DNA of 64,000 nt from Escarpia spicata (taxonomy: Eukaryota; Annelida; Polychaeta; Sabellida; Siboglinidae), in contig OZ023205.1 of the NCBI GenBank assembly GCA_963995525.1, positions 55,230,767 through 55,294,766 on the forward strand. Direction: 5' to 3'. The notes beneath the pieces were generated by a model. The model was not told where the DNA came from. It ran no database searches and saw only the letters and a list, made by a program, of their open reading frames with translations. Shown here piece after piece: positions 8,855 through 58,550 of the stretch (position 1 is its first letter; each line of letters begins with the position of its first letter). Made by a program: the position numbers and the translations under genes.

Positions 8855-9755
8855 ATATATAAATGATTTGGATGATGCAATATGAAGCAAAGTACTGAAA
8901 TTCGCAGACGATACAAAAGTGTACAGAAGAGTTAAAACAGATGCAGATAAACATACTTTACAAGACTAGCCAAATGGTCTGAAAAACGGCAAATGTTATT
9001 CAATTTTGGGAAATGTAAATGCATTTACATAGGAAATGTGAACAAAGAATACATAATGGGGGATACCATATTAGGTAACAGACAGTTTGTGCTGACCTGA
9101 AAGTTTCAGAGCAATGTTGAATTGCAGCTTCAAAGAGTAACCAAATACTAGGGCTAATTAATCACTTATAAGGAAAACAGCTGATTGTGCCACTGTACAG
9201 AGCAATAGTTAGATCTCATTTGGAATATTGCATACAACCACGGAGGCTATATCATAAGAAGGACATAGATACGCTAGAAAGAGTACAACGAAGAGCAACT
9301 AGGCTGATTCCTGAACTGAAAGATCTTAGTTATGAAAAACGCCTATTATAATGCGGGTTGACAACACTAGAGACTAGGAGACTAAGAGGAGACCAAATAG
9401 AAGTGTGTAAAATATTGAATGGTTAGGAAGATATTGATAGAAATATGTTCGTCAAACTGAAAGAAGGCAGTAGAAGAGAGGGAACAATGCAGCATTAGTC
9501 AAAGAACAGTGCAGGTTAAATGTGAGAAAACACTCATTCTCTCAGAGGACAATAAATGACTGGAACAAATTATATCATGCTTGTGTTAATGCTAGCAATG
9601 TGAATAAGTTAAAAAATAAAATTGACAGCTATTTGGGGAGGGCGGGCTAAACATAGTTAGAACATTTTTGGACTCTTGATACGCCAAAGGCTTCCTTGTT
9701 CGCAGCTTCTAGCTCTGGACGGCAATCTTGATAAATCTTGTTACACGTGCGCTAC
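8588..9755 (+). pseudogene. Decayed non-LTR retrotransposon (same family as 36220-38605)
   Basis: Starts at RT motif text VDVVYLAFQKALDKVPHQRL, aligned to the intact copy's VDIVYLDFQKAFDKVPHQRL, so the first catalytic Asp is lost (LDF to LAF). Homology continues through the RT thumb and C-terminal region to the 3' end with GGCAATCTTGATAAATCTTG. Many frameshifts and stops are present. An AT microsatellite (8817-8861) has expanded inside the former RT catalytic region. Dead 5'-truncated copy. Confidence 0.85.
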
Positions 9756-19380: not shown

Positions 19381-20547
19381 CACAAGACACACCACACAAG
19401 ATTACCCATTTGGAAGCAATAACAACATCTATTTCATATTTTCATACAATAACTGATTGTCAGTCTAATGCAGTGAAAATGATTATGACTATTATAGAAA
19501 TCTCCAATTCCATTACTTTTACCTTCCATATAAAAATTGAACACAATACGGTTTCTGCTTGTTCTGTTTTACAACCATCTCAAGCCTAACCTATCAACCT
19601 ATCTAATATCCTCCATGACAGGTAAGCTAAATTTGTTTTTTTAAATGTGTTATATAGTTATGATGATATCATCGGATAACCACTCAATTAGTGTTGACTT
19701 TGTCCTGTCGAGATTTTGCTAAAAATGGCAAAAGTGGTCTGGCTCGATATATACAAAAAAATTCACACTTTCACAAGGTACCCCACCCCATCTAACTATC
19801 AACGCCAATCTTATGTATGATCTGAAAAACTACATTATTCAGGCTCGTAATGATTTATTTTTTTGGATGTTCATTTTTTATTTGCAAAATAAGCTTCAAA
19901 AAACCTCCCCCTTGAGACTTCCAATGTATTGCATCCAACTAGTGGCTCACAAAAAACCTCTAACTACACACCCCTTGAGACTTTGAGTGGAACACTTGCC
20001 TAAGCAGGGGGTGTGTACCCATCGCGCCACAAGCCTACACACCTGCTATTAGACCGAGTGCGTGTATTCTTTAAACTATTCACACAGGACATATATGAAC
20101 ATCAACAAACATGATTTGTTGTGGATTAATGAGTATTGGAGGAAGTATTAATTGTAAGTTATAAGGCAGTGAGATCAGACCAGTTGCAACTGGGAGTTAA
20201 TACTGGATGCGTGTTAAATATCAGAGCTGGCAAGTTGTGGCAGGAAACTTGCACAGGACACGAGGTGACTGCATTCAAATTTCTCCGAAGGCAACATTTT
20301 ATACGCGTCACTGATGATGATAAAAACAATTTTGCAGATTCTCTGGACACTGTGCTATCCGCCCTTGTATATCACTAACGTTATGCATGAAAATAGGTGT
20401 TTGTATTAATAGTTTTGAAATGGCAAATATGCGCGAGATTTACAGGTAGCCTTATGGGCAGATGAGATGGATGCTAATAGACGACTCTCACGTTGAATGA
20501 GAATTGACAGAGCTCTATAAAGTGTACATGTTAGAAATTAAACAAGT
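19381..20547. other. Intronic sequence; one unexplained open frame
   Basis: Mostly AT-rich. On the plus strand, 20136-20378 gives an 80-codon frame ending RVTDDDKNNFADSLDTVLSA that looks better than random but has no recognised domain or clear splice sites. I do not call it a gene. Confidence 0.35.
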
Positions 20548-23500
20548 AGTAGAGAGTGTGATGGTGTAGTAGGGAGAGCGATGGTGTAGTAGGGAGTGTG
20601 ATGATGTAGTAGAGAGTGTGATGGTGTAGTAGGGAGTGCGATGGTGTAGTAGAGAGTGCGATGGTGTAGTAGGGAGCGTGATGATATAGTAGAGAGTGTG
20701 ATGATGTAGTAGAGAGAGTGATGGTGTAGTAGAGAGAGCGATGGTGTAGTAGAGAGTGCGATGGTGTAGTAGAGAGTGCGATGGTGTAGTAGAGAGTGCG
20801 ATGGCATAGTAGGGAGCGTGATGATATAGTAGAGAGTGTGATGATGTAGTAGAGAGTGTGAAGGTGTAGTAGGGAGTGCGATGGTGTAGTAAAGAGTGCG
20901 ATGGTGTAGTAGAGAGTGCGATGGTGTAGTAGAGAGTGCAATGATGTAGCAGGGAGTGTGAAGGTGTAGTAGGGAGTGTGATGGTGTAGTAGGGAGTGCG
21001 ATGGTGTAATAGCGGGTGCGATGGTGTAGTAGAGAGTGCGATGGTGTAGTAGAGAGTGTGATGGTGTAGTAGGGAGTGCTATGGTGTATTAGAGCGAGAG
21101 AGATGGTGTAGTAGAGAGCACGGTGGTGTAGTAGAGGGCGCGATGGTGTAGTAGGGAGTGCGATGGTGTAGTAGAGAGAAAGCGATGGTGTAGTAGAGAA
21201 TGTGATGGAGTTGTAGAGAGCGCGATGGTGTAGTACAGAGAGCGCGGTGGTGTTGTAGAGAGAGTGTGATTGTGTAGTAGAGAGTGTGATGGTGTAGTAG
21301 GGAGTGTGATGGTGTAGTAGAGAGAGTGTGATTGTGTAGTAGAGAGTGTGATGGTGTAGTAGGGAGTGTGATGGTGTAGTAGAGAGAGTGTGATTGTGTA
21401 GTAGAGAGTATGATGGTGTAGTAGGGAGTGTGATGGTGTAGTAGAGAGTGTGATGGTGTTGTAGAGAGCGCAATAGTGTAGTACAGAGAGCGAGATGGTG
21501 TAGTAGAGAGTGCGATGGTGTAGTACAGAGAGCACGATGGTGTTGTAGAGAGTGCGATGGTGTAGTAGAGAGTGTGATGGTGTAGTAGGGTGTGTGATGG
21601 TGTAGTAGAGAGTATGATGGTGTAGTAGAGAGTGTGATGGTGCTGTAGAGAGCGCAATAGTGTAGTACAGAGAGCACGATGGTGTTGTAGAGAGTGCGAT
21701 GGTGTAGTAGAGAGTGTGATGGTGTAGTAGGGAGTGTGATGGTGTAGTAGGGAGTGTGATGGTGTAGTAGAGAGTATGATGGTGTAGTAGAGAGTGTGAT
21801 GGTGCTGTAGAGAGTGTGATGGTGTAATAGGGAGTGTGATGATGTAGTAGAGAGTGTGATGGTGTAGTAGGGTGTATGATGGTGTAGTAGAGAGAGTGAT
21901 GGTGTTTTAGAGAGCGCAGTAGTGTAGTACAGAGAGCATGATGGTTTTGTAGAGAGTGCGATGGTGTAGTAAAGAGTGTGATGGTGTAGTAGAGAGTGTG
22001 ATGGTGTAGTAGAGAGTTTGATGGTGTAGTAGAGAGTGTGAAGGTGTATTAGAGAGTGTGATGGTCTAGTAGGGAGTGTGATGGTGTAGTAGAGAGTGCG
22101 ATAGTGTAATAGAGAGTGTGATGGTGTAGTAGAGAGTGCGATGGTGTAGTAGTGAGTGCGATGGTGTAGTAGAGAATGCGATGGTGTAGTAGGGAGTGTG
22201 ATGGTGTAGTAGAGTGTGATGGTGTAGTAGAGAGTGCGATGGTGTAGTAGGGAGTGCGATGGTGTAGTAGGGAGTGCGATGGTGTAGTAGAGAGTGCGAT
22301 GGTGAAGTAGGGAGTATGATGGTGTAGTAGAGAGTGTGATGGTGTAGTAGAGAGTGCGATGGTGTAGTAGGGAGTGTGATGGTGTAGTAGAGAGTGCGAT
22401 GGTGTAGTAGGGAGTGCGATGGTGTAGTAGAGAGTGAGATGGTGTAGTAGAGAGTGTGATGGTGTAGTAGAGAGTGGGATGGTGTAGTAGGGAGTGCGAT
22501 GGTGTAGTAGAGAGTGGGATGGTGTAGTAGGGAGTGTGATGGTGTAGTAGAGAGTAGGATAGTGTAGTAGGGAGTGTGATGGTGTAGTAGGGAGTGTGAT
22601 GGTGTAGTAGGGAGTGTGATGGTGTAGTACAGAGTGGTATGGTGTAGTAGGGAGTGTGATGGTGTAGTAGAGAGCACGGTGGTGTAGTATAGAGAGAGCT
22701 ATGGTGTAGTAGAGAGCGCTGTGGTGTTGTAGAGAATGCGATGGTGTTGTAGAGCGCAATGGTGTAGTAGAGAGCGCGATGGTGTAGTATAGAGAGCACG
22801 ATGGTGTTGTAGAGAGTGCGATGGTGTTGTGGTTAGCACATATGCCTGGCATGCCAGCACTTTGAGTGTAGCAGGGAGTGTGAAGGTGTAGTAGGGAGTG
22901 TGATGGTGTAGTAGGGAGTGCGATGGTGTAATAGCGGGTGCGATGGTGTAGTAGAGAGTGCGATGGTGTAGTAGAGAGTGTGATGGTGTAGTAGGGAGTG
23001 CTATGGTGTATTAGAGCGAGAGAGATGGTGTAGTAGAGAGCACGGTGGTGTAGTAGAGGGCGCGATGGTGTAGTAGGGAGTGCGATGGTGTAGTAGAGAG
23101 AAAGCGATGGTGTAGTAGAGAATGTGATGGTGTTGTAGAGAGCGCGATGGTGTAGTACAGAGAGCGCGGTGGTGTTGTAGAGAGAGTGTGATTGTGTAGT
23201 AGAGAGTGTGATGGTGTAGTAGGGAGTGTGATGGTGTAGTAGAGAGAGTGTGATTGTGTAGTAGAGAGTGTGATGGTGTAGTAGGGAGTGTGATGGTGTA
23301 GTAGAGAAAGTGTGATTGTGTAGTAGAGAGTATGATGGTGTAGTAGGGAGTGTGATGGTGTAGTAGAGAGTGTGATGGTGTTGTAGAGAGCGCAATAGTG
23401 TAGTACAGAGAGCGAGATGGTGTAGTAGAGAGTGCGATGGTGTAGTACAGAGAGCACGATGGTGTTGTAGAGAGTGCGATGGTGTAGTAGAGAGTGTGAT

Positions 23501-24825
23501 GGTGTAGTAGGGTGTGTGATGGTGTAGTAGAGAGTATGATGGTGTAGTAGAGAGTGTGATGGTGCTGTAGAGAGCGCAATAGTGTAGTACAGAGAGCACG
23601 ATGGTGTTGTAGAGAGTGCGATGGTGTAGTAAAGAGTGTGATGGTGTAGTAGAGAGTGCGATGGTGTAGTAGAGAGTGTGATGGTGTAGTAGGGAGTGTG
23701 ATGGTGTAGTAGGGAGTGTGATGGTGTAGTAGAGAGTATGATGGTGTAGTAGAGAGTGTGATGGTGCTGTAGAGAGTGTGATGGTGTAGTAGGGAGTGTG
23801 ATGATGTAGTAGAGAGTGTGATGGTGTAGTAGGGTGTATGATGTAGAGAGAGTGATGGTGTTTTAGAGAGCGCAGTAGTGTAGTACAGAGAGCATGATGG
23901 TTTTGTAGAGAGTGCGATGGTGTAGTAAAGAGTGTGATGGTGTAGTAGAGAGTGTGATGGTGTAGTAGAGAGTTTGATGGTGTAGTAGAGAGTGTGAAGG
24001 TGTATTAGAGAGTGTGGTGGTCTAGTAGGGAGTGTGATGGTGTAGTAGAGAGTGCGATAGTGTAATAGAGAGTGTGATGGTGTAGTAGAGAGTGCGATGG
24101 TGTAGTAGTGAGTGCGATGGTGTAGTAGAGAGTGCGATGGTGTAGTAGGGAGTGTGATGGTGTAGTAGAGTGTGATGGTGTAGTAGAGAGTGCGATGGTG
24201 TAGTAGGGAGTGCGATGGTGTAGTAGGGAGTGCGATGGTGTAGTAGAGAGTGCGATGGTGAAGTAGGGAGTATGATGGTGTAGTAGAGAGTGTGATGGTG
24301 TAGTAGAGAGTGCGATGGTGTAGTAGGGAGTGTGATGGTGTAGTAGAGAGTGCGATGGTGTAGTAGGGAGTGCGATGGTGTAGTAGAGAGTGAGATGGTG
24401 TAGTAGAGAGTGTGATGGTGTAGTAGAGAGTGGGATGGTGTAGTAGGGAGTGCGATGGTGTAGTAGAGAGTGGGATGGTGTAGTAGGGAGTGTGATGGTG
24501 TGGTAGAGAGTAGGATAGTGTAGTAGGGAGTGTGATGGTGTAGTAGGGAGTGTGATGGTGTAGTAGGGAGTGTGATGGTGTAGTACAGAGTGGTATGGTG
24601 TAGTAGGGAGTGTGATGGTGTAGTAGAGAGCACGGTGGTGTAGTATAGAGAGAGCTATGGTGTAGTAGAGAGCGCTGTGGTGTTGTAGAGAATGCGATGG
24701 TGTTGTAGAGCGCAATGGTGTAGTAGAGAGCGCGATGGTGTAGTATAGAGAGCACGATGGTGTTGTAGAGAGTGCGATGGTGTTGTGGTTAGCACATATG
24801 CCTGGCATGCCAGCACTTTGAGTTA
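20548..24825. repeat. 4.3 kb minisatellite array, 20-bp unit, with higher-order duplication
   Basis: Roughly 210 variants of GATGGTGTAGTAGAGAGTGT. Within it, ~20.95-22.87 kb and ~22.87-24.83 kb are near-identical ~1.95 kb blocks. Rare variants (GATGGTGAAGTAGGGAGTAT, AGAGTAGGATAGTG) recur in the same order, and each block ends in the non-repeat motif GTTAGCACATATGCCTGGCA. Corresponding points are 1,956 bp apart near the block ends and ~1,920 bp near their starts, so a few units were gained or lost. Because 20 is not a multiple of three and the minus strand lacks stops, all three minus frames stay open for up to 753 codons. Those frames are artefacts. Confidence 0.95.
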
Positions 24826-36219: not shown

Positions 36220-38501
36220 GTTTGTATATTATTCAGTTATATGCAAGCAATACCAGGGGTGAGAATGTGTTAGACATAGTTTTGTCCTCACAGAATGAAT
36301 TAGTTGACAATGTCAAAATATGTGAGCCACTGGGGAGTAGCGATCACAACCAGATACATTTTACCATCAAAGTAAAATCAGAAAGGAATAGCAAAAAGCA
36401 GTATAGGAGAAATTTCCACAAAGGAAGGTATAAGGACATGAGGAAATATTTAGCAAAGATAGACTGGAATAAGACACTGAAAAATAAGACGGCAACAGAA
36501 TGCTGGAATATATTAAAGAGTGAAATTAAGTGCATAATCGATAAATTTGTACCCTTCAAAAAACAAGGAAAACGGTCCAAAAAGAAACACTTATCGAAAG
36601 AAGCCATTAGAAAAATTAAGTATAAACAAATGATGTGGAAGTCATATAGATGTACTGGAAATGATGAAGACTACAACAATTATAAAGAAGCACTTAACCA
36701 AGCTACAGCTGAAATTAGAAATTCAAAGAGAAGCTATGAACAACAATTAGCTAGTAATATAAAACATGACAGCAAGAGTTTTTATGCGTATGTTCGAAGC
36801 AAACAGAAAGTTCAAGATAAGGTCGGTCCTCTAGAAGATAGTGCTGGAAATATGATATCAGAGGGATTCATAATGGCAGAAGACCTGAATGAGTACTTTA
36901 GTTCAGTGTTTACCAGGGAAGATATTAGTTCACTGCCAATACCAGAGGCTAAGTTCAAGGGGGCAGATTCAGACTATTTAGGACAATTAATTGTAACCCC
37001 GGAAATGGTAGCTAAGAAAATAAGGGCTATGAAGGAAAATAAATCACCTGGAGTGGATGGTATTCCACCCAAACTACTATTGGAAATTGTAGAACAAATT
37101 AGCATACCACTTGCAACAGTTTTCAACTTGTCATTAGAAGAGGGAGTGGTTCCTTTAGAATGGAAAGAAGCAAACATTATACCGTTATTCAAAAAAGGTT
37201 CGAGAAACAAGTCAGAGAACTATAGACCAGTGAGTTTAACATCAGTGATTTGTAAATTATTAGAAAGACTAATTAAAGATCACATGGTGGATTTTCTTGT
37301 TAAACAAAACTTGATAAACCCATCTCAACATGGTTTTTTTAAAGCGAGGTCATGCTTAACAAATATGTTATGTTTTTTGGAAGACATCACTAAGTGGGTA
37401 GATGAGGGAACACCAGTAGATATCGTCTACTTAGATTTTCAAAAAGCTTTTGACAAAGTACCACATCAAAGATTACTGCTTAAACTAAAGGCCCATGGCA
37501 TAGGAAATGGTATAATAAACTGGATAGAACAATGGCTGATTGACAGAAGACAACGTGTAGTAGTTGATGGGGAGGCTTCAAACTGGAAATCGGTATTGAG
37601 TGGGGTACCACAGGGATCAGTATTAGGTCCTATATTATTCTTAATATACATAAACGATTTGGATGATGAAATAACAAGCAAGGTGTTGAAATTTGCGGAT
37701 GATACAAAAGTGTTTAGAAGGATTAAAAGTGATGGAGATAGACAGCATTTACAAGATGATCTTGACAGGTTGATGAAATGGTCTGAAAAATGGCAAATGA
37801 TGTTCAATTTTGGGAAATGTAAATGCCTCCACATAGGACATGGGAACGAAGAGGTAGAATATACAATGGGGGGTACTGTACTAAGTACTACTGTAAAAGA
37901 AAAGGACTTAGGGTTAACCGTTAGTGCTGATATGAAGATTTCAGAGCAGTGCGGAATTGCAGCTTCAAAGGGAAATCAAATCCTTGGATTAATTAGGCGA
38001 AACATAACGTATAAGGAAAAAGAGCTAATAATACCGCTGTACAAAACAATAGTTAGGCCTCATTTAGAATATTGTATTCAAGCGTGGAGGCCATATCGCA
38101 GGAAGGACATAGATATGCTAGAAAGAGTGCAGAGGAGAGCAACTAAAATGATACAAAATCTGAGGGATCTTAGTTATGAAATACGCCTAAAAAAATGCGG
38201 TTTAACAACACTAGAGACCAGGAGATTGAGAGGAGATCAGATAGAAGTGTTTAAAATATTGAAGGGTTATGAAAATATTGATAGAAATATGTTTTTCTCA
38301 GTTAAGAAAGATAGAAGGACTAGAGGACATGATCTTGCATTAGCAAAGGAGCAGAGTAGATTGGATATAAGAAAGTTTTCATTTTCACAAAGGACTGTAA
38401 ATGAATGGAACAGATTACCTGCTGATTGTGTGGGTGCTAGTAGCGTGAATATGTTTAAAAATAAAATCGACACATACCTCAGACGGGCGGGATACACATA
38501 A
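36204..38501 (+). CDS. Non-LTR retrotransposon ORF2: endonuclease tail and reverse transcriptase
   Basis: A single 765-codon frame. It opens in the end of the endonuclease domain (GENVLDIVLSSQNEL, LGSSDHNQIHF), so the copy is 5'-truncated and the first ~12 codons are probably flank. RT palm motifs are complete: VDIVYLDFQKAFDKVPHQRL, GVPQGSVLGPILFLIYINDL and KFADDTKVF (FADD at 37692-37703). The C-terminal region has HLEYCIQAWRPYRRKDIDML and RVQRRATKMIQNL. The family is CR1/L2/Jockey-like. No frameshift occurs in 2.3 kb, so it is the youngest copy of a family with five other fragments in this window. The 3' end (to ~38605) finishes with TCTTGTTAAA repeats, the likely RT priming tail. Confidence 0.88.
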   Translation: MIITFCLYIIQLYASNTRGENVLDIVLSSQNELVDNVKICEPLGSSDHNQIHFTIKVKSERNSKKQYRRNFHKGRYKDMRKYLAKIDWNKTLKNKTATECWNILKSEIKCIIDKFVPFKKQGKRSKKKHLSKEAIRKIKYKQMMWKSYRCTGNDEDYNNYKEALNQATAEIRNSKRSYEQQLASNIKHDSKSFYAYVRSKQKVQDKVGPLEDSAGNMISEGFIMAEDLNEYFSSVFTREDISSLPIPEAKFKGADSDYLGQLIVTPEMVAKKIRAMKENKSPGVDGIPPKLLLEIVEQISIPLATVFNLSLEEGVVPLEWKEANIIPLFKKGSRNKSENYRPVSLTSVICKLLERLIKDHMVDFLVKQNLINPSQHGFFKARSCLTNMLCFLEDITKWVDEGTPVDIVYLDFQKAFDKVPHQRLLLKLKAHGIGNGIINWIEQWLIDRRQRVVVDGEASNWKSVLSGVPQGSVLGPILFLIYINDLDDEITSKVLKFADDTKVFRRIKSDGDRQHLQDDLDRLMKWSEKWQMMFNFGKCKCLHIGHGNEEVEYTMGGTVLSTTVKEKDLGLTVSADMKISEQCGIAASKGNQILGLIRRNITYKEKELIIPLYKTIVRPHLEYCIQAWRPYRRKDIDMLERVQRRATKMIQNLRDLSYEIRLKKCGLTTLETRRLRGDQIEVFKILKGYENIDRNMFFSVKKDRRTRGHDLALAKEQSRLDIRKFSFSQRTVNEWNRLPADCVGASSVNMFKNKIDTYLRRAGYT

Positions 38502-38605
38502 ATAAAAAGGTCGGACTCTCGAAAAGCCAAGGGCTTCCTTGTCCACCTGCTACCTAGAGTTAATTCTCTGGGTGGCAATCTTGTTAAATCTTGTTAAATA
38601 CCGTT
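36220..38605 (+). mobile_element. 5'-truncated non-LTR element containing the RT frame above
   Basis: The 3' UTR (38502-38605) includes GGGCTTCCTTGTCCACC and GGTGGCAATCTTGTTAAATC, both shared with the copies at 9.7 and 55.5 kb. It ends in direct repeats of the TCTTGTTAAA unit. Confidence 0.8.
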
Positions 38606-50792: not shown

Positions 50793-51595
50793 TCACATGG
50801 TGGATTTTATTGATTAACCCATCTAAACCTGGGTTTCTAAAAGCGAGGTCATGCTTAATGAATATGTCATGTTTTTTTGAAGATATTACTAAGTGATCAC
50901 CAGTAGATATCATCTACTTAGATTTTCAGAAAACTTAGCAAAGTGCCACATCAAAGATTACTGCTTAAACTAAAGGCCCATGGCATAGGAAATAGTATAA
51001 TTAACTGGATAGAAAATGGCTGATTGACAGAAGACAACGGGTACTAGTTGATGGGGAGGCTTCAAACTGGAAATCAGTTTTGAGTGGGGTGCCACAGTCA
51101 GTACTAGGATCAAAAGGATTAAACGTAATGGAGATAGGCAGCATTTTCAAGATGATCTTGACAGGTTGAACAAATGGTCTGAAAAGTGGCAAATATTGTT
51201 CCATTTTTAGAAATGTAAATGCCTCCACACAGGACATGGGAACAAAGATGTACAATACACATTGGTGGTTACTGTACTACGTACTACTATAAAAGAAAAG
51301 GTCTTAGGTTAACCATTAATGCTGATATAAGCAGTCCGGAATTGCAGCTTCAAAGGGAAATCAAATCCTTGGGTTAATTATACAAAATCTAGCATATTTA
51401 TATATAAGGAAAAAGAACTAATAATACCGCCACACAAAACAATAGTTAGGCCTCATTTAAAATATTGTATACAAACGTGGAGGCCATATCGCAAGAAGGA
51501 CATAGATATGCTAGAAAGAGTACAGAGAGCGACTGAAATGATACTAAAACTGATGGATCTTAGTTATGAAATACGCCTAAAAGAATATGGTTTAA
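50793..51595 (+). pseudogene. Decayed non-LTR copy, part 1 (before nested insertion)
   Basis: Aligned by eye to 37275-38210 of the open copy, starting ATCACATGGTGGATTTT. It includes a deleted RT core (loss between GTGCCACAG and GATCAAAAGG removes FADD) and the C-terminal domain. It stops at GGTTTAA where another element is inserted and resumes at 53046. Confidence 0.85.
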
Positions 51596-52510: not shown

Positions 52511-53045
52511 CGATATTCTAGTGATATTATGAGATTATACACGTTACTTTCTGTAGCTGGATACGATATATGTTTGCTATGTATGTATATTGGTGTACAT
52601 TATCTCCCGTTGGTTGCATTCGATATAATTATTCTGAAAACGAGCCCAAGCTCAGCGAAACCTAGTCGACTTGTAGGCCCATTCGCATACATTGTTTTGA
52701 ATAAAATTGGATTCGAACCGTAAGATAACTGCTTGTTCCTCTATGATGACTAGTTTTTGTATTGCATAGGAAAATTGCACAATAACTCATTCTGACGCTT
52801 GTTTCGACCCAAAAGCTATACTTGTAAACATGCTCTGAATGCATGGAAAGGGTTGGCCTGATGCGAGTTTGAGTCATAAGTGACATTACATCTCGGCATC
52901 CCGAAAAGCGCGCCAAAAATATCCGGATGTACAGCATAAAATGTGGAATTTCTAATTCATTCAATTTTGTTTGCTTGGTGGACGTGGAAATAGATAGCAG
53001 GATGTAATATAACATGAATTCAAGCAATAGATGTTTTTATTCCCT

Positions 53046-53243
53046 TTAACAACACTAGAAACCAGGAGATTGAGCGGAGATCAGATAGAAGTGTTGAAAT
53101 ATTGAATGGTTATAAAAATATTGATAGCAATTTTTTTCTCAGTTAAAGAGAGGTAGAAGGACTAGAGGACGTGAAGTTATATTAGTAAATGAGCAGTGTA
53201 GAATATATCTAAGAAAGTTGTTATTTTCACAATGGACTGTAAA
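53046..53243 (+). pseudogene. Decayed non-LTR copy, part 2 (after nested insertion)
   Basis: Continues AACAACACTAGAAACCAGGA as at 38205 of the open copy and ends near TTTTCACAATGGACTGTAAA. The 3' UTR is missing. Confidence 0.85.
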
Positions 53244-53439
53244 TGATATTCAATATATATAAATAAATTATTGGATAAATAAGTGCACGAAGCAGTACTC
53301 AAGTTTAATAGTTTGGAAAACTAGTAAACTTCAGTACTGCTTATTGATCGAGGTTTTTTGCAGAAATGCTAAAACATAGCCACATCGTTAAACAGGTAAA
53401 AATGTCAGTATACTGCCAAAGGTATACTGCCAAATTGCA

Positions 53440-53865: not shown

Positions 53866-53901
53866 CCCTAGCAACGGAAACACGCTACACAGTGAGGCAT
53901 C

Positions 53902-54084
53902 ATGGACGACAGGTTTTATGAAAAATATGCAGACAAAATTAATGAAAATGTGTCTATTTCAACAAACAATCAGTGTATATTGTGGACAGGCTGCACAAAA
54001 GGCACAGGGGTGAAATACGGAGCAGTTAACTGCAAGTTTAGACGTGGCAATAAACGTACCATCATGGCACACCGGTTAAGCTAT
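53902..54084 (+). CDS. HNH/His-Me-finger endonuclease, N-terminal part (interrupted)
   Basis: ATG at 53902 opens MDDRFYEKYADKINE, then CILWTGCTKGTGVKYGAVNC and MAHRLSY, the N-terminal half of proteins with the zinc-binding loop region of homing (His-Me finger) endonucleases, which cut DNA. The recognisable family ends at codon 61 (TAT, 54082-54084). The remaining signature, SHLCHNSLCV, is found 4.5 kb away at 58551 in the same strand and phase. The gene was therefore probably intact before an element was inserted at 54085-58550. Confidence 0.7.
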
Positions 54085-55062
54085 TTAGTGTGCTACTTTC
54101 GCTCGGTACCCCCTCACCCCCAGTGTATATATGATGGCATGTGTTACAGAATTGTTCATGCAGCCCTTTCTCTGTTTGTATAAAGTTACACGAACTATTG
54201 CATAGGTTGGTAATGGGCAATCCAAATTTATTAATTCACAGGGATTGCCACTGTGCACAGACAATATATACAGTGTATTTCGCATCCTGTGCACAGACAG
54301 GTACATAAAGATTACTGATCTATGTACCGCATATGCTATGTACTACAATTTGTACATATATATATAATAATTTTCCATTCTAGCTAGTTAGTGACTGAAA
54401 AAAACCTTGAATGCTGTTATACATATTTACAGCATACGAACTGTCACAGATTTACAATATATAATTCAAGGGAAAAGATACCTCTGTGCATACTGCACAC
54501 CTTCTATATTACTAGCTAGATTATTTACCGCAATTTGCTATATACAAAAGTGGGGGGCTCAAACCCCCTGGCCCCCATGTTCGCATGCGGTGGCCAAAAC
54601 CCCCACTAAAGGGCTGCTGATGACTAATAAAACAAGCCAATTCTAACAAAATGTATTTCCTTAGTTGATGGCTTCAACAGGAAAACCCATCGTCTGCAGA
54701 TAGAAGCAAGTCGGACTCGTGTTAGGTTGTCCCGCTATGCCTGTCCCTCCCCCAACGGAGGGATAGGCCGTCTCACGACCCACCCTCCACCACGAGACGA
54801 ACGAGGCACTACGAGACCGTCCCACCACACTTGACCACTGCATTCTACGACTTGTAAAGTTCAAAGAGCTCAGCTAGCCTTGAAAGTTCGTCCCATTCAG
54901 TGTTGCAGCTCCGTCACATCAGGGGTTGCCGATTGTTGCAGATCTACCGTCCCATTGTGTAGCGACCAGGCGAACTTTTGATTGAATGGGTAGACTCGTC
55001 ATGAAACACAATAGTTACATGTGGTCAGTTGTATGTTGAGTGGCTGGTACATCTTATGTGGC
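54085..55062. other. Non-coding 3' part of the recombinase element
   Basis: Contains TGGGGGGCTCAAACCCCCTG, a short hairpin (54551-54570), and GGGGGCC/GGCCCCC-like text. No split direct repeats matching the other end were found by eye. Confidence 0.4.
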
Positions 55063-57094
55063 TTATTTGCTGGAAATTGATTCTACCCGGATATATTTTT
55101 GGTACGAGTTCGAATGCCAGCGACCCATAGCCTTAATTTGTTCTGATGAGAAACCTGCTTTTGCTGCCCACGTCGCAGCCCCTATTCTGAATGAGTGTGG
55201 TGAAATTTTCTTGCCAGCTAAGTCTGTGTTATCTAGCACTGCTTTAAGATAGTTAGCAAAAGCGGTCTTCTGCACTGGTAACTTATTGGCAGTGCGGAAA
55301 AGGGGCCCCTCATCCTGACCCCTGAGTTTGATATAGTCTACCATCCTACGATATGGACACGCTGTCTTTCTTGTGGGGAGGACGTCCAAGCTGAATGGGC
55401 GGCCTGCACTGTGTTTGTATGACTGGAACACCAGGCGTAATTTTGAAGGTTTTATGCGACATTGGGTCACCGAAAGATTATGCGGGCTAGCTGTTTAACA
55501 AGATTTAACAAGATTTAACAAGATTGCCATCCAGAAAATTACTCTGGATGGCAGTTGGACAAGGAAGCCTTTTGGCTTATCGAGAGTCCAATACTTTTTA
55601 TCTACATGTATCCCGCCTTTTTAAGGTGTGTGTCGATTTTATTTTTAAACATATTCACGCTACTAGCACCAACACAATCAGGAGATAATCTGTTCCATTC
55701 ATTTACAGTCCTTTGTGAGAATGAGAACTTTCTTATATCTAATCTACACTGCTCCTTTACTAATGTAGCTTCATGTCCTCTGGTCCTTCTATCTTTCTTA
55801 ACTGAGAAAAAAATGTTTCTATCAATATTTTCATAACCATTCAATATTTTAAACACTTCTATCTCTGATCTCCTCTCAATCTCCTGGTCTCTAGTGTTGT
55901 TAAACCACATTCTTTTAGGCGTATTTCGTAACTAAGATCCCTCAGATTTGGTATCATTTTAGTCGCTCTCCTCTGTACTCTTTCTAGCATATCTATGTCC
56001 TTCTTGCGATATGGCCTCCATGCTTGTATACAATATTCTAAATGAGGCCTCACTATTGTTTTGTACAGCGGTACTATTAATTCTTTTTTCTTATACGCTA
56101 TATTTCGCCTAATTAATCAAATTAATCAAACTGTTACCTCACCTATTCTTAGAAAACCAAAGAACATGAGGCTGAACATAGCCCGGAGCAAGACAACTGT
56201 GTACGAAGAACATTGAGTCATTGGAACTGTTCTAATGATGAGAGACAGATCATTAGAGGAGACAGGTTGACGTTGGTCAACGTGCGGGCAAGCGCGTGCC
56301 ACACCCTTAACAGTCTTTACCACCAAGTAATCCTTTGTTGGATCGGGGTAGCGACATACTTTGTGACGTTCAGAGATAGCCGATAAAAAAGTCCTAATTG
56401 TGCTGGGTGCTTTGCCTTCATTTTTGAGATATTGAACAAATGCAATTACTGTGTTAGGGGAAGCTGGTAGATATTGCCTCTTTCTATCTAGTGTTTGTAC
56501 AAAGGTTACAAACCTTGTCCAATTATTCTCATAACGTTTTGCACTACTTGGTGCGAAAGCAGCGTCCATGGTAGTCAGGGCGCTGTGTGCCAGGGTAGCC
56601 AGTGAGTGGGAACAGGTGCTGGGTGGTCGTCCAGACTTGGCTGAACTCTGCGTGCACGGTCCACCTGATCGGTGAGATGGACGTTTCGCTTTGGTGCGGA
56701 TGCGCGACTCTATCTCAGTGGTTGGGTCATCATTGTCGGTGATGCTGGAGTCGGAATCAGCAGAATTGATGATTGGCTCAATGGATGGTGTACGTTTCCG
56801 TTTTCTGGGATGCCGAACGGGGTGGGGTGGCTCGGTTGATGTACCAGCACTCGGTTGTTGATGCTCGTTTGGCATTCTCGTTTTTTCAGTCGGGGCAGGG
56901 ATCAGCGTCGCCTGCTCCCGACTGAATTTTTCGAATTTCTCGTCGATCTTCGCCATCAATGTGGTCATTAGTAGCTCCATTTTTTGGTCACTGTCGCAGG
57001 GTGGTGTTTTTTGAGGTTCCTGGATTTCCTCAGAGACCTCTGGAGCGATTTTGTCTCCTTTTTTCGGCCGCCCTGTCGATGATTGTTTTGACAT
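55063..57094 (-). CDS. Tyrosine recombinase, split by a non-LTR insertion
   Basis: ATG at 57094 (MSKQSSTGRPKKGDK). A low-complexity, basic N-terminal half includes HPRKRKRTPS, then a SAM-like core-binding domain (AFAPSSAKRYENNWTRFVTF, GKAPSTIRTFLSAISERHKV). Catalytic box I is FGFLRIGEVT (Arg). After 635 bp of inserted retroelement the frame resumes ASPHNLSVTQ and reaches box II HSFRIGAATWAAKAGFSSEQ (His, Arg) and GRWHSNSYQKYIRV (His, Tyr nucleophile). Removing the insert and one TSD copy leaves an uninterrupted frame of about 463 codons with Arg, His-x-x-Arg, His and Tyr all present. It would cut and rejoin DNA through a 3'-phosphotyrosine. Now disrupted; intact until the insertion. Confidence 0.82.
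55491..56135 (-). mobile_element. 5'-truncated non-LTR insertion with 5-bp target duplication
   Basis: Body 55496-56130, flanked on the minus strand by AACAG at 56135-56131 and 55495-55491. It begins inside the RT C-terminal region (RRNIAYK-like text), codes HLEYCIQAWRPYRKKDIDML in decayed frames, and ends GGCAATC followed by three TCTTGTTAAA units. It is the same family as 36220-38605 and very similar in sequence, so the insertion is recent. Confidence 0.9.
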
Positions 57095-57133
57095 GACCTG
57101 GAAGCGTTCAAAGCCACATTCATTCATCAACAA

Positions 57134-57564
57134 ACACTGTTTTTATTTATTTACTTTTTGTTTGTTTAGTTTTTATTTATTTTTGTAATCTACATGCATA
57201 CCTAATGTTACACGCACTAACATTCTGGTATTCCGACTCAGGCTTGATTGCGAGTTCTCTCACCCATTGCATGTAGGTATGCGTCTCGCCTTCACAGCAG
57301 AGAACAGACCGGTTTTGTTTTCTTTATTTTATTTTTTTTTTTCAGCCGCCATCTATATTATCTTACTCCCCGTAATTATTACAACTGTCTACTATTCGGC
57401 GCTACCCAAAGTCGCCTGTGTTACTGTATTGCCCGTGTATACAAACAACAGCTAGGACTGGGTAAACAAAGAACTGCGGTAAAAACAAACTTGGCCGACA
57501 CGCACGTGAGCGCAGCCGATTTACCGTTCATTCAAAATTACCGACATGGCTGGGCATGAACATG
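57134..57564. other. Spacer between SGNH and recombinase frames
   Basis: About 430 bp, AT- and T-tract-rich, with no conserved frame on the minus strand. It could hold the recombinase promoter. Confidence 0.4.
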
Positions 57565-58149
57565 TTATTTTAACGCTGCGACTATAGCTGTACGAAGCGA
57601 GAAATAGTAACGCTTCAAACCAGCTTCACTTAGGTGGACACCATCACATAGAAGGGAGGGTACCAACGCCGTAAACCGTACGTGTTTGAGTACGACCATG
57701 CTCACATTTGGGACGGCCTTTTGGGCGCACAAGTGTTTTAATGTGGTGTTAAACAATTCGGCCTTTCTCTGGAAATCCGCAGTTCTAGCTTGAAATCGAC
57801 CGGGACCCCTTGGGAGAACCGGACAAAATAACACCTTCCGAAGCGATTGAAATCCCTGCGTGCAATGTACCGCTAGCTTAACTAGGTCAGTCGCTAGCTT
57901 AATGGCGTCAGCTCCGCGTCGATCGATGTAGTTTGTACCGACATCGAAAATCAACACAATGGGCCGCTGTTCCGCTAGTTTTTCAAACAGACCGTTACTG
58001 ACCAGCTTAGGGATGGTTGCGCCACCCCGTCCAGACAATTTAACCTGGGTGCGCCTAGGGTTGAATTCGAAATTCTCCCGGTTTGTTTTTACCATGAATT
58101 TGTGTAGCCTCGTAACATACGAATGTCCCGCATATAGCACCTGCTCCAT
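57565..58149 (-). CDS. SGNH (GDSL-like) hydrolase domain protein
   Basis: ATG at 58149; 194 residues. Blocks of the SGNH fold appear in order: AGHSYV with the nucleophile Ser (residue 10), GRGGATI (residues 40-46, oxyanion Gly), DVGTNYID (GTN at 71-73), and CDGVHLSEAG (Asp/His at 169 and 172). Such enzymes are esterases or acyl-hydrolases. SGNH domains are known as passengers in some CR1 ORF1 proteins and, I believe, in some Ngaro-type elements. Here the frame precedes a tyrosine recombinase on the same strand and lies inside the same insertion. No stops, all catalytic residues present. The in-frame GTG/AGT just upstream (58164) suggests the start could lie further up. Confidence 0.78.
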   Translation of the reverse strand: MEQVLYAGHSYVTRLHKFMVKTNRENFEFNPRRTQVKLSGRGGATIPKLVSNGLFEKLAEQRPIVLIFDVGTNYIDRRGADAIKLATDLVKLAVHCTQGFQSLRKVLFCPVLPRGPGRFQARTADFQRKAELFNTTLKHLCAQKAVPNVSMVVLKHVRFTALVPSLLCDGVHLSEAGLKRYYFSLRTAIVAALK

Positions 58150-58550
58150 ATTGCTGGTACTCACCGCGTCGACGTTCAGTGGACGAGCTGGGGCGACGTC
58201 GATGTTACTTCTGGCAACGCGTGTTCTTCAAAGTCTCGGAATCAAAATTTTGTTGACAGTTGAAGACGAAGTGTTCTGTACGGCAATGCGAATCGAACTG
58301 AACGAGAACCACGCTTCTCTGTTCTTACTGCAAACATTTTCCCGCGCATGCGCTGCTGGCCAATCGCGTGCCGCTCAGGTGACGCGGTTTAATTAGCATT
58401 CTAGGCCAGTTTAATTAAGCGCTGGGGCGAATAAAAGGGGTGTGCAGTATTAGAGGGGAAACAGGTTGTTTTTACCACCTAGCTTATCCGCTAGGTGCTC
58501 GCTGCGTTGTTACACAAAAAAGCTTTTCATCCTGAAGGCCAAAAATTAAT

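Follow-up and report, generated by a model that had tools for sequence, protein, structure and literature searches.

We analyzed a 4466 bp insertion within a 64,000-nucleotide stretch of the Escarpia spicata genome (contig OZ023205.1, positions 55,230,767 to 55,294,766; hereafter the window). The insertion interrupts an HNH endonuclease gene (PF05551) and carries, on the minus strand and in this order, an SGNH hydrolase gene, the start of a gag gene and a tyrosine recombinase (YR) gene. Comparison with other copies in the genome suggests that it is very probably a copy of a Ngaro-like YR retrotransposon made from an RNA whose gag and reverse transcriptase/RNase H (RT/RH) part had been spliced out. 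The initial annotation had proposed a new type of mobile element with SGNH and YR genes and no RT. Sister copies carry an RT/RH open reading frame (ORF) between these two genes, and the proposal of a new layout therefore fails.

A precise insertion without target duplication

Searches covered the 1.06 Gb host genome; L-numbers denote extracted loci, some of which overlap or hold the same copy twice. The right half of the HNH gene matched 318 candidates, of which the best 40 were scored and six loci were extracted, one of them the window itself. In all five others (L074–L078) the site is empty: sequence matching window position 54084 runs directly into that matching 58549, with an overlap of 2 bp (AT). 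This contiguity in 5/5 paralogues implies that nothing was duplicated or lost at the target and places the insertion ends within 2 bp. The same ends recur in other copies of the element, and L079 has an intact HNH ORF of 151 aa with a PF05551 match.

No terminal inverted repeats (TIRs) were found in the insertion, whose sole inverted pair (21 nt, 81% identity) lies at least 100 bp inside the ends. The segment of about 4.5 kb between HNH halves that the initial annotation had delimited is thus confirmed, as are its lack of TIRs and near-lack of a target-site duplication (TSD); insertion by a recombinase is supported by the precise empty sites, the absence of a TSD and the recurrent ends. In a pattern search of the extracted loci, T was the second base in 16 of 16 distinct 5′-side flanks and the last base in 11 of 11 distinct 3′-side flanks – lists that each include some junctions between element ends rather than fresh target sites. 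These T-containing flanks fit a conservative crossover that uses a very short stretch of common sequence.

Sister copies carry gag, RT and RNase H

A genome search with the SGNH region yielded 39 matches. L031, L032 and L034 have the ends of the window copy (for L032, only the 3′ end lies within the extracted letters). Sisters that bear RT/RH are 89–99% identical to the window copy and hold extra DNA between window positions 56667 and 56663. The extra piece measures about 2.2 kb in both L031 and L032 and 1.6 kb in L034, where two ordinary deletions removed parts of it. The extra DNA of L031 encodes the remainder of gag, with a zinc-finger-like motif, an RT (RVT_1, E 5.4e-10) and an RNase H (weak match); the L031 YR has all the catalytic residues R, HxxR, H and Y (PF00589, E 4.1e-7). 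L032 has a gag ORF of 379 aa and an RT/RH ORF as in L031. No methyltransferase domain was matched in Pfam by six L031 and L032 proteins at E 0.1, and no terminal inverted repeats were found in L031.

A second subfamily, about 72% identical to the first, has an equal gene plan. In L038 the ORFs for Gag, RT/RH and YR comprise 368, 620 and 350 aa, and an SGNH ORF of 197 aa is readable in four of the six loci tried (L016, L017, L019 and L020). L038 and L016 are overlapping extracts of one copy, in which the RT/RH ORF again lies between SGNH and YR. In the longer relatives, where the initial annotation had suggested looking for RT, the stretch from SGNH to YR does contain RT, together with gag and RNase H. 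In P0007, which comes from a public contig, an RT/RH-like stretch with weak Pfam matches below the cut-off directly precedes a YR close to that of the window copy; no solved structure sequence-related to P0007 was found at E 0.1.

The window junction, at which this piece is missing, was complete at two of the 38 places matched by a 91-base query: the window and a copy on C2 (extracted as L006, L033 and L040). The other 36 places match only the gag side (15) or only the YR side (21), and pairing of the places puts the two sides 1.6–2.3 kb apart in 13 copies. Two of these 13, L009 on C3 and L010 on C720, have a common 5′ flank; they resemble a duplicated stretch or an alternative contig more than two separate insertions.

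Junctions with splice-like borders

The piece missing from the window copy and L006 can be read as GTACTA...TTGCAG, leaving the joint CAG/GT (slash marks the joint); we designate its borders donor D2 and acceptor A2. Acceptors A1 and A2 are distinct from the terminal segments A1 and A2 described below. In L027, an RT-less copy of the second subfamily, the missing piece starts with GTGAGTGT and ends with GGTTACAG, which corresponds to another donor within gag (D3) and the same acceptor as in the window copy. Here too the gag frame continues into YR, so that both junctions keep gag in frame with YR. L053 lacks 1.1 kb, from GTGAGTAC just before the SGNH start (donor D1) to GCTTCCAG just before the gag start (acceptor A1). 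D1 and acceptor A1 flank SGNH exactly, and L053 lacks exactly this gene.

The candidate donor is GTGAGT in both L053 and L027, and only 2 bp of sequence are shared across either junction. The 6074-bp L031 element contains a single GTRAGT, which lies at D1; L038 contains two, one of them at the position of the L027 donor. GTGAGT is kept at D1 in 9/11 other loci compared (L018 has GTGTGT and L012 GTGAGC), and the acceptor A1 sequence occurs in both subfamilies in a pattern search that lists only loci having it.

Among eight distinct types of deletion longer than 60 bases in the extracted loci, three can be read as GT–AG: that of the window copy and L006, that of L027 and that of L053. A looser second survey added the L014 type (611 bp, with 21 bp of filler); the 87-bp spacer between segments A2 and B2 fell outside its limits. 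Random deletions were GT–AG-readable in 0.6% of cases, in 1.0% with 2 bp of microhomology and in 2.3% with at least 5 bp. At the highest of these rates, the chance of three or more in eight is about 7 in 10,000 by a post hoc calculation that does not yet take into account that an acceptor is shared or that the breakpoints fit gene borders.

The two RT-less copies of the first type are not sisters. A tree built from the 5′ part of 11 copies places the C2 copy among RT-bearing copies and the window copy outside them, and forcing the two together was rejected (approximately unbiased test, p-AU 0.0018). This grouping was also rejected for downstream regions of 532 bp (23 rows, 18 different; p-AU 0.0127) and 860 bp (22 rows, 15 different; p-AU 0.00017), in which some rows represent one copy extracted twice; the 532-bp tree is poorly resolved and still joins the two copies in 2% of its bootstrap trees. 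A single ancestral deletion common to the window and C2 copies is thus rejected by three trees. Given the GT–AG borders, the recurrence in non-sister copies and the junctions of L027 and L053, these copies most likely derive from reverse-transcribed spliced RNAs.

Alternative explanations

It is unlikely, in our estimate, that splicing played no part and that the RT region was lost through a deletion at the DNA level or a template switch of the reverse transcriptase, aided by a repeated 5-bp CAGGT. The D2–acceptor A2 junction does have 5 bp of microhomology, with CAGGT at both borders, and five of the eight deletion types (in L011, L014, L034 twice, and L069) are ordinary ones, plainly not GT–AG. 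Such events would have had to produce an identical junction in two non-sister copies, GT–AG borders with GTGAGT donors in L027 and L053 despite only 2 bp of shared sequence, the use of one acceptor by both L027 and the window copy, and the removal of exactly the SGNH gene in L053. Besides the microhomology and the ordinary deletions, further observations weigh against splicing. D2 (GTACTA) is a weak donor by the usual consensus and is changed in L031 (CAAGT) and L002; no strong pyrimidine tract is apparent by eye before acceptor A2; and D1 is changed in L012 and L018, and acceptor A1 in L005 (CCAGATC). Splice-like products are rare: the D2–acceptor A2 junction occurs at 2/38 places, D3–acceptor A2 at one of the best 40 scored among 78 candidates, and D1–acceptor A1 in one copy. 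In L033 gag is frameshifted, and in L027 the open frame does not begin until inside gag, so that the joints are in frame while the whole proteins are not. Gene conversion among copies could also create the appearance of independent origins, and the splicing is read here from genomic copies.

An autonomous Crypton-like DNA element with SGNH and YR and without RT would account for the window copy taken singly, with its precise insertion and its lack of RT, TIRs and TSD. The existence of RT/RH-bearing sisters with the same ends at 89–99% identity leads us to reject such an element, which we regard as extremely improbable: the RT-less junction is found at two of 38 places, in non-sisters, no RT-less lineage was seen, and the window YR ORF starts with a truncated gag. 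Just as improbable is that SGNH is a chance passenger of one lineage rather than a part of the element. The Pfam score of the window SGNH lies below the curated cut-off and L053 lacks the gene, but SGNH occupies the same position in two subfamilies only about 72% identical, evolves with a low ratio of nonsynonymous to synonymous substitution rates (dN/dS, see below) and has been reported in Ngaro-like elements of Xenopus (PMC9210276).

Proposed expression scheme

If the junctions do derive from splicing, they suggest a scheme in which we infer the splicing in RNA, a circular intermediate, the mode of RT and YR translation and the role of SGNH alike. Transcription would start in or near terminal segment A, and the unspliced RNA would yield SGNH, whose ATG lies just after D1. 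Splicing from D1 to acceptor A1 would give Gag, together with RT/RH from an overlapping frame, and a Gag-YR fusion would come from splicing to acceptor A2, with a donor within gag (D2 in the first subfamily, D3 in the second). The reverse transcriptase would make circular DNA from unspliced RNAs and at times from spliced ones, and YR would join this DNA to the genome by a conservative crossover over a very short stretch common to both, hence without target duplication.

With moderate confidence, we extend this to the element as a whole: a Ngaro-like element may use retrovirus-like alternative splicing, with SGNH in a first intron and Gag-YR made through one acceptor, and its spliced RNAs may be copied and integrated, repeatedly yielding RT-less units of SGNH plus Gag-YR that YR could in principle move as DNA. 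The initial annotation had considered an RT-less derivative moving as DNA. The idea of an RT-less derivative is right for the window copy, but its origin looks like RNA splicing and the RT-less form shows no sign of multiplying, because its junction is complete at two of 38 places and these two are not sisters.

Under this scheme, frozen genomic copies would reveal RNA isoforms without RNA data, the SGNH ORF would lie within a first intron under separate control, and the recombinase would seem to be made as a Gag fusion. RT-less YR elements met singly may likewise be processed copies rather than Crypton-like transposons.

Genes of the window copy and selection on SGNH

Feature coordinates are given in Table 1. 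The initial annotation described the SGNH gene as intact and the recombinase as having a complete set of catalytic residues, and missed that the N-terminal part of its YR ORF is the start of gag. The SGNH frame is indeed open, but it has GTNYID at the GxND box in place of the GTNDID of the aligned P0015, L031 and L032. The YR retains Arg, His-x-x-Arg, His and Tyr, but a fragment of a long interspersed nuclear element (LINE) splits the gene and separates the Arg from the others, leaving an ORF in two pieces, 57142–56126, which begins with gag sequence, and 55494–55063. The fragment is flanked by a duplication of about 5 bp (CTGTT, read by eye) and is absent from L031–L034, where YR is contiguous. 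With its recombinase gene cut and its GxND box altered, the window copy is broken.

Table 1. Features of the insertion and the interrupted gene (window coordinates).
Feature	Position	Strand	Basis or remark
Entire insertion (SGNH-bearing YR retrotransposon, copy lacking RT)	54085..58550	-	Common ends and empty sites
HNH gene, left half	53898..54084	+	
HNH gene, right half, PF05551	58551..58829	+	
5′ terminal segment A (A1)	58238..58550	-	Recurs as A2 after B1 in some copies
Candidate splice donor D1, GCG/GTGAGT, 15 nt upstream of SGNH ATG	58163..58164	-	L053 junction
SGNH/GDSL hydrolase ORF, 194 aa + stop, ATG at 58149	57565..58149	-	PF13472
Candidate splice acceptor A1, TTCCAG/GTCATG, 3 nt upstream of gag ATG at 57094	57098..57099	-	L053 junction
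gag N-terminal part, ~143 codons, fused in frame to YR	56665..57094	-	Continues into gag of L031/L032
Junction CAG/GT, ~2.2 kb (gag remainder, RT, RNase H) missing	56663..56667	-	If an exon-exon boundary, between 56665 and 56664
YR part 1, core-binding domain and catalytic Arg	56131..56664	-	Weak PF02899 match; relatives P0001, P0002
LINE fragment inside YR gene	about 55495..56130	-	91% to window 37984-38599
YR part 2, Lys, His-x-x-Arg, His, Tyr	55063..55494	-	PF00589, E 7.8e-6, just under curated cut-off
3′ terminal segment B (B1)	54084..54569	-	Recurs as B2 in split-direct-repeat copies

The window SGNH matches PF13472 with E 1.5e-6 and 29.2 bits, under the curated cut-off of 32.9, which the L031 protein exceeds (38.8 bits); it is 98% identical to P0015. 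Its predicted structure has a pLDDT of 74.6, and a search for solved structures related in sequence gave no useful match (best E 0.15). No homologue of the gag N-terminus was found at E <= 1 among 88 candidates.

Between the subfamilies, dN/dS was 0.15–0.17 for SGNH (four comparisons sharing one side), 0.09 for RT/RH and 0.06 for YR (one comparison each). SGNH, like RT and YR, is thus under purifying selection and is probably retained for a function of the element. The function of the SGNH ORF is unproven in Ngaro elements (PMC9210276), and the esterase of a LINE binds lipids (PMC3905857). By analogy, SGNH is perhaps an esterase whose action on membranes or lipids serves the assembly or transport of particles.

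At window position 57118, the gag leader lacks 44 bp that are present in the other 10 aligned copies; as an intron this piece was rejected, its end not being AG (by eye). LINE-like fragments also occur at window positions 9184–9743, 37984–38599, 51403–51595 and 53045–53246, and the piece in YR matches across 55503–56121. The interrupted HNH gene shares a repeat unit with a gene for a Mutator-like transposase (in L079, PF20700 with E 5.7e-58); in the window this unit covers 53898–54084 and 58551 to at least 60366. Many copies of this unit form one array with a spacing of about 3.8 or 4.3 kb (G000:C2, about 41.57–41.73 Mb). Window positions 20546–24783 are taken up by a strongly GC-skewed tandem repeat, whose 20-bp unit is present about 210 times.

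Terminal segments and split direct repeats

L033 and L036 have the split direct-repeat layout A1-[ORFs]-B1-A2-B2, with segments A2 and B2 separated by about 87 bp; in L033, segments A1 and A2 are identical over 273 nt. In L035 the repeat is partial, with 82 bp of A2 after B1. A junction of B1 with A2 is thus present in three of the eight copies with an examined 3′ end, and the other five (the window copy, L031, L032, L034 and L037) have no A2-B2. L014, outside this count, has an end-to-end junction in rearranged form.

The terminal segments also seem to make up a numerous short non-autonomous repeat, B/A-spacer-B (L069–L072). In the four loci read, its first B is truncated at points that vary from about 54363 to 54613, and L069 has two B/A junctions 823 bp apart. 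In a search with 240 bp around the B/A junction, the best 40 of 1327 candidates were scored and all 40 were full-length matches.

Comparison with known elements

By its gene content the element appears Ngaro-like; split direct repeats are a feature of some copies only. Introns may have been discussed in early papers on YR retrotransposons; to our knowledge, little has been established about how these elements express their three or four overlapping genes. We found no report of splicing in Ngaro or DIRS elements in the open-licence PMC literature, which was covered mostly at the level of titles and the beginnings of abstracts, and as far as this limited literature goes the isoform scheme is undescribed. 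Extra ORFs of long terminal repeat (LTR) retrotransposons are typically expressed through spliced messages (PMC5408684). The BARE element makes one product, Gag, from a spliced subgenomic RNA (PMC3735527), and is thus also a retrotransposon that uses spliced RNA; BARE, however, is an LTR retrotransposon in which splicing favours Gag, whereas here both Gag and Gag-YR would arise from spliced RNAs.

Tyrosine recombinases are common to this element and Crypton DNA transposons (PMC3212892), but the sisters of the window copy carry RT/RH and gag. DIRS-like elements have inverted terminal repeats with an internal complementary region and a methyltransferase domain; terminal inverted repeats were not found in L031, nor was the domain matched in the L031 and L032 proteins. 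Lack of a methyltransferase domain is a mark of Ngaro-like elements (PMC4157794). The Ngaro elements of Cafeteria burkhardae resemble the element in their gag-RT/RH-YR order, their A1-[ORFs]-B1A2B2 layout and the isolated AB repeats in the genome, but no SGNH ORF or splicing is described for them in the available part of the report (PMC8547959). SGNH/GDSL ORFs are also borne by retroelements of other classes, CR1, L2 and RTEX LINEs and bdelloid LTR elements (PMC3905857, PMC5408684), a likeness by domain type.

A close resemblance is to DIRS-53_XT and DIRS-54_XT of Xenopus, Ngaro-like elements with Gag, RT/RH, YR and an SGNH ORF and no methyltransferase (PMC9210276). Split direct repeats (A1..B1A2B2) are reported there for DIRS-53_XT and were not found for DIRS-54_XT; the Escarpia copies that have them, L033 and L036, differ from DIRS-53_XT in the approximately 87 bp between A2 and B2, and 5/8 copies lack A2-B2. 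In the Xenopus elements the SGNH ORF is described as following YR, whereas here it comes first, before gag and between D1 and acceptor A1. Read round a circle, the gene order of the Escarpia element is the same as that of the Xenopus elements.

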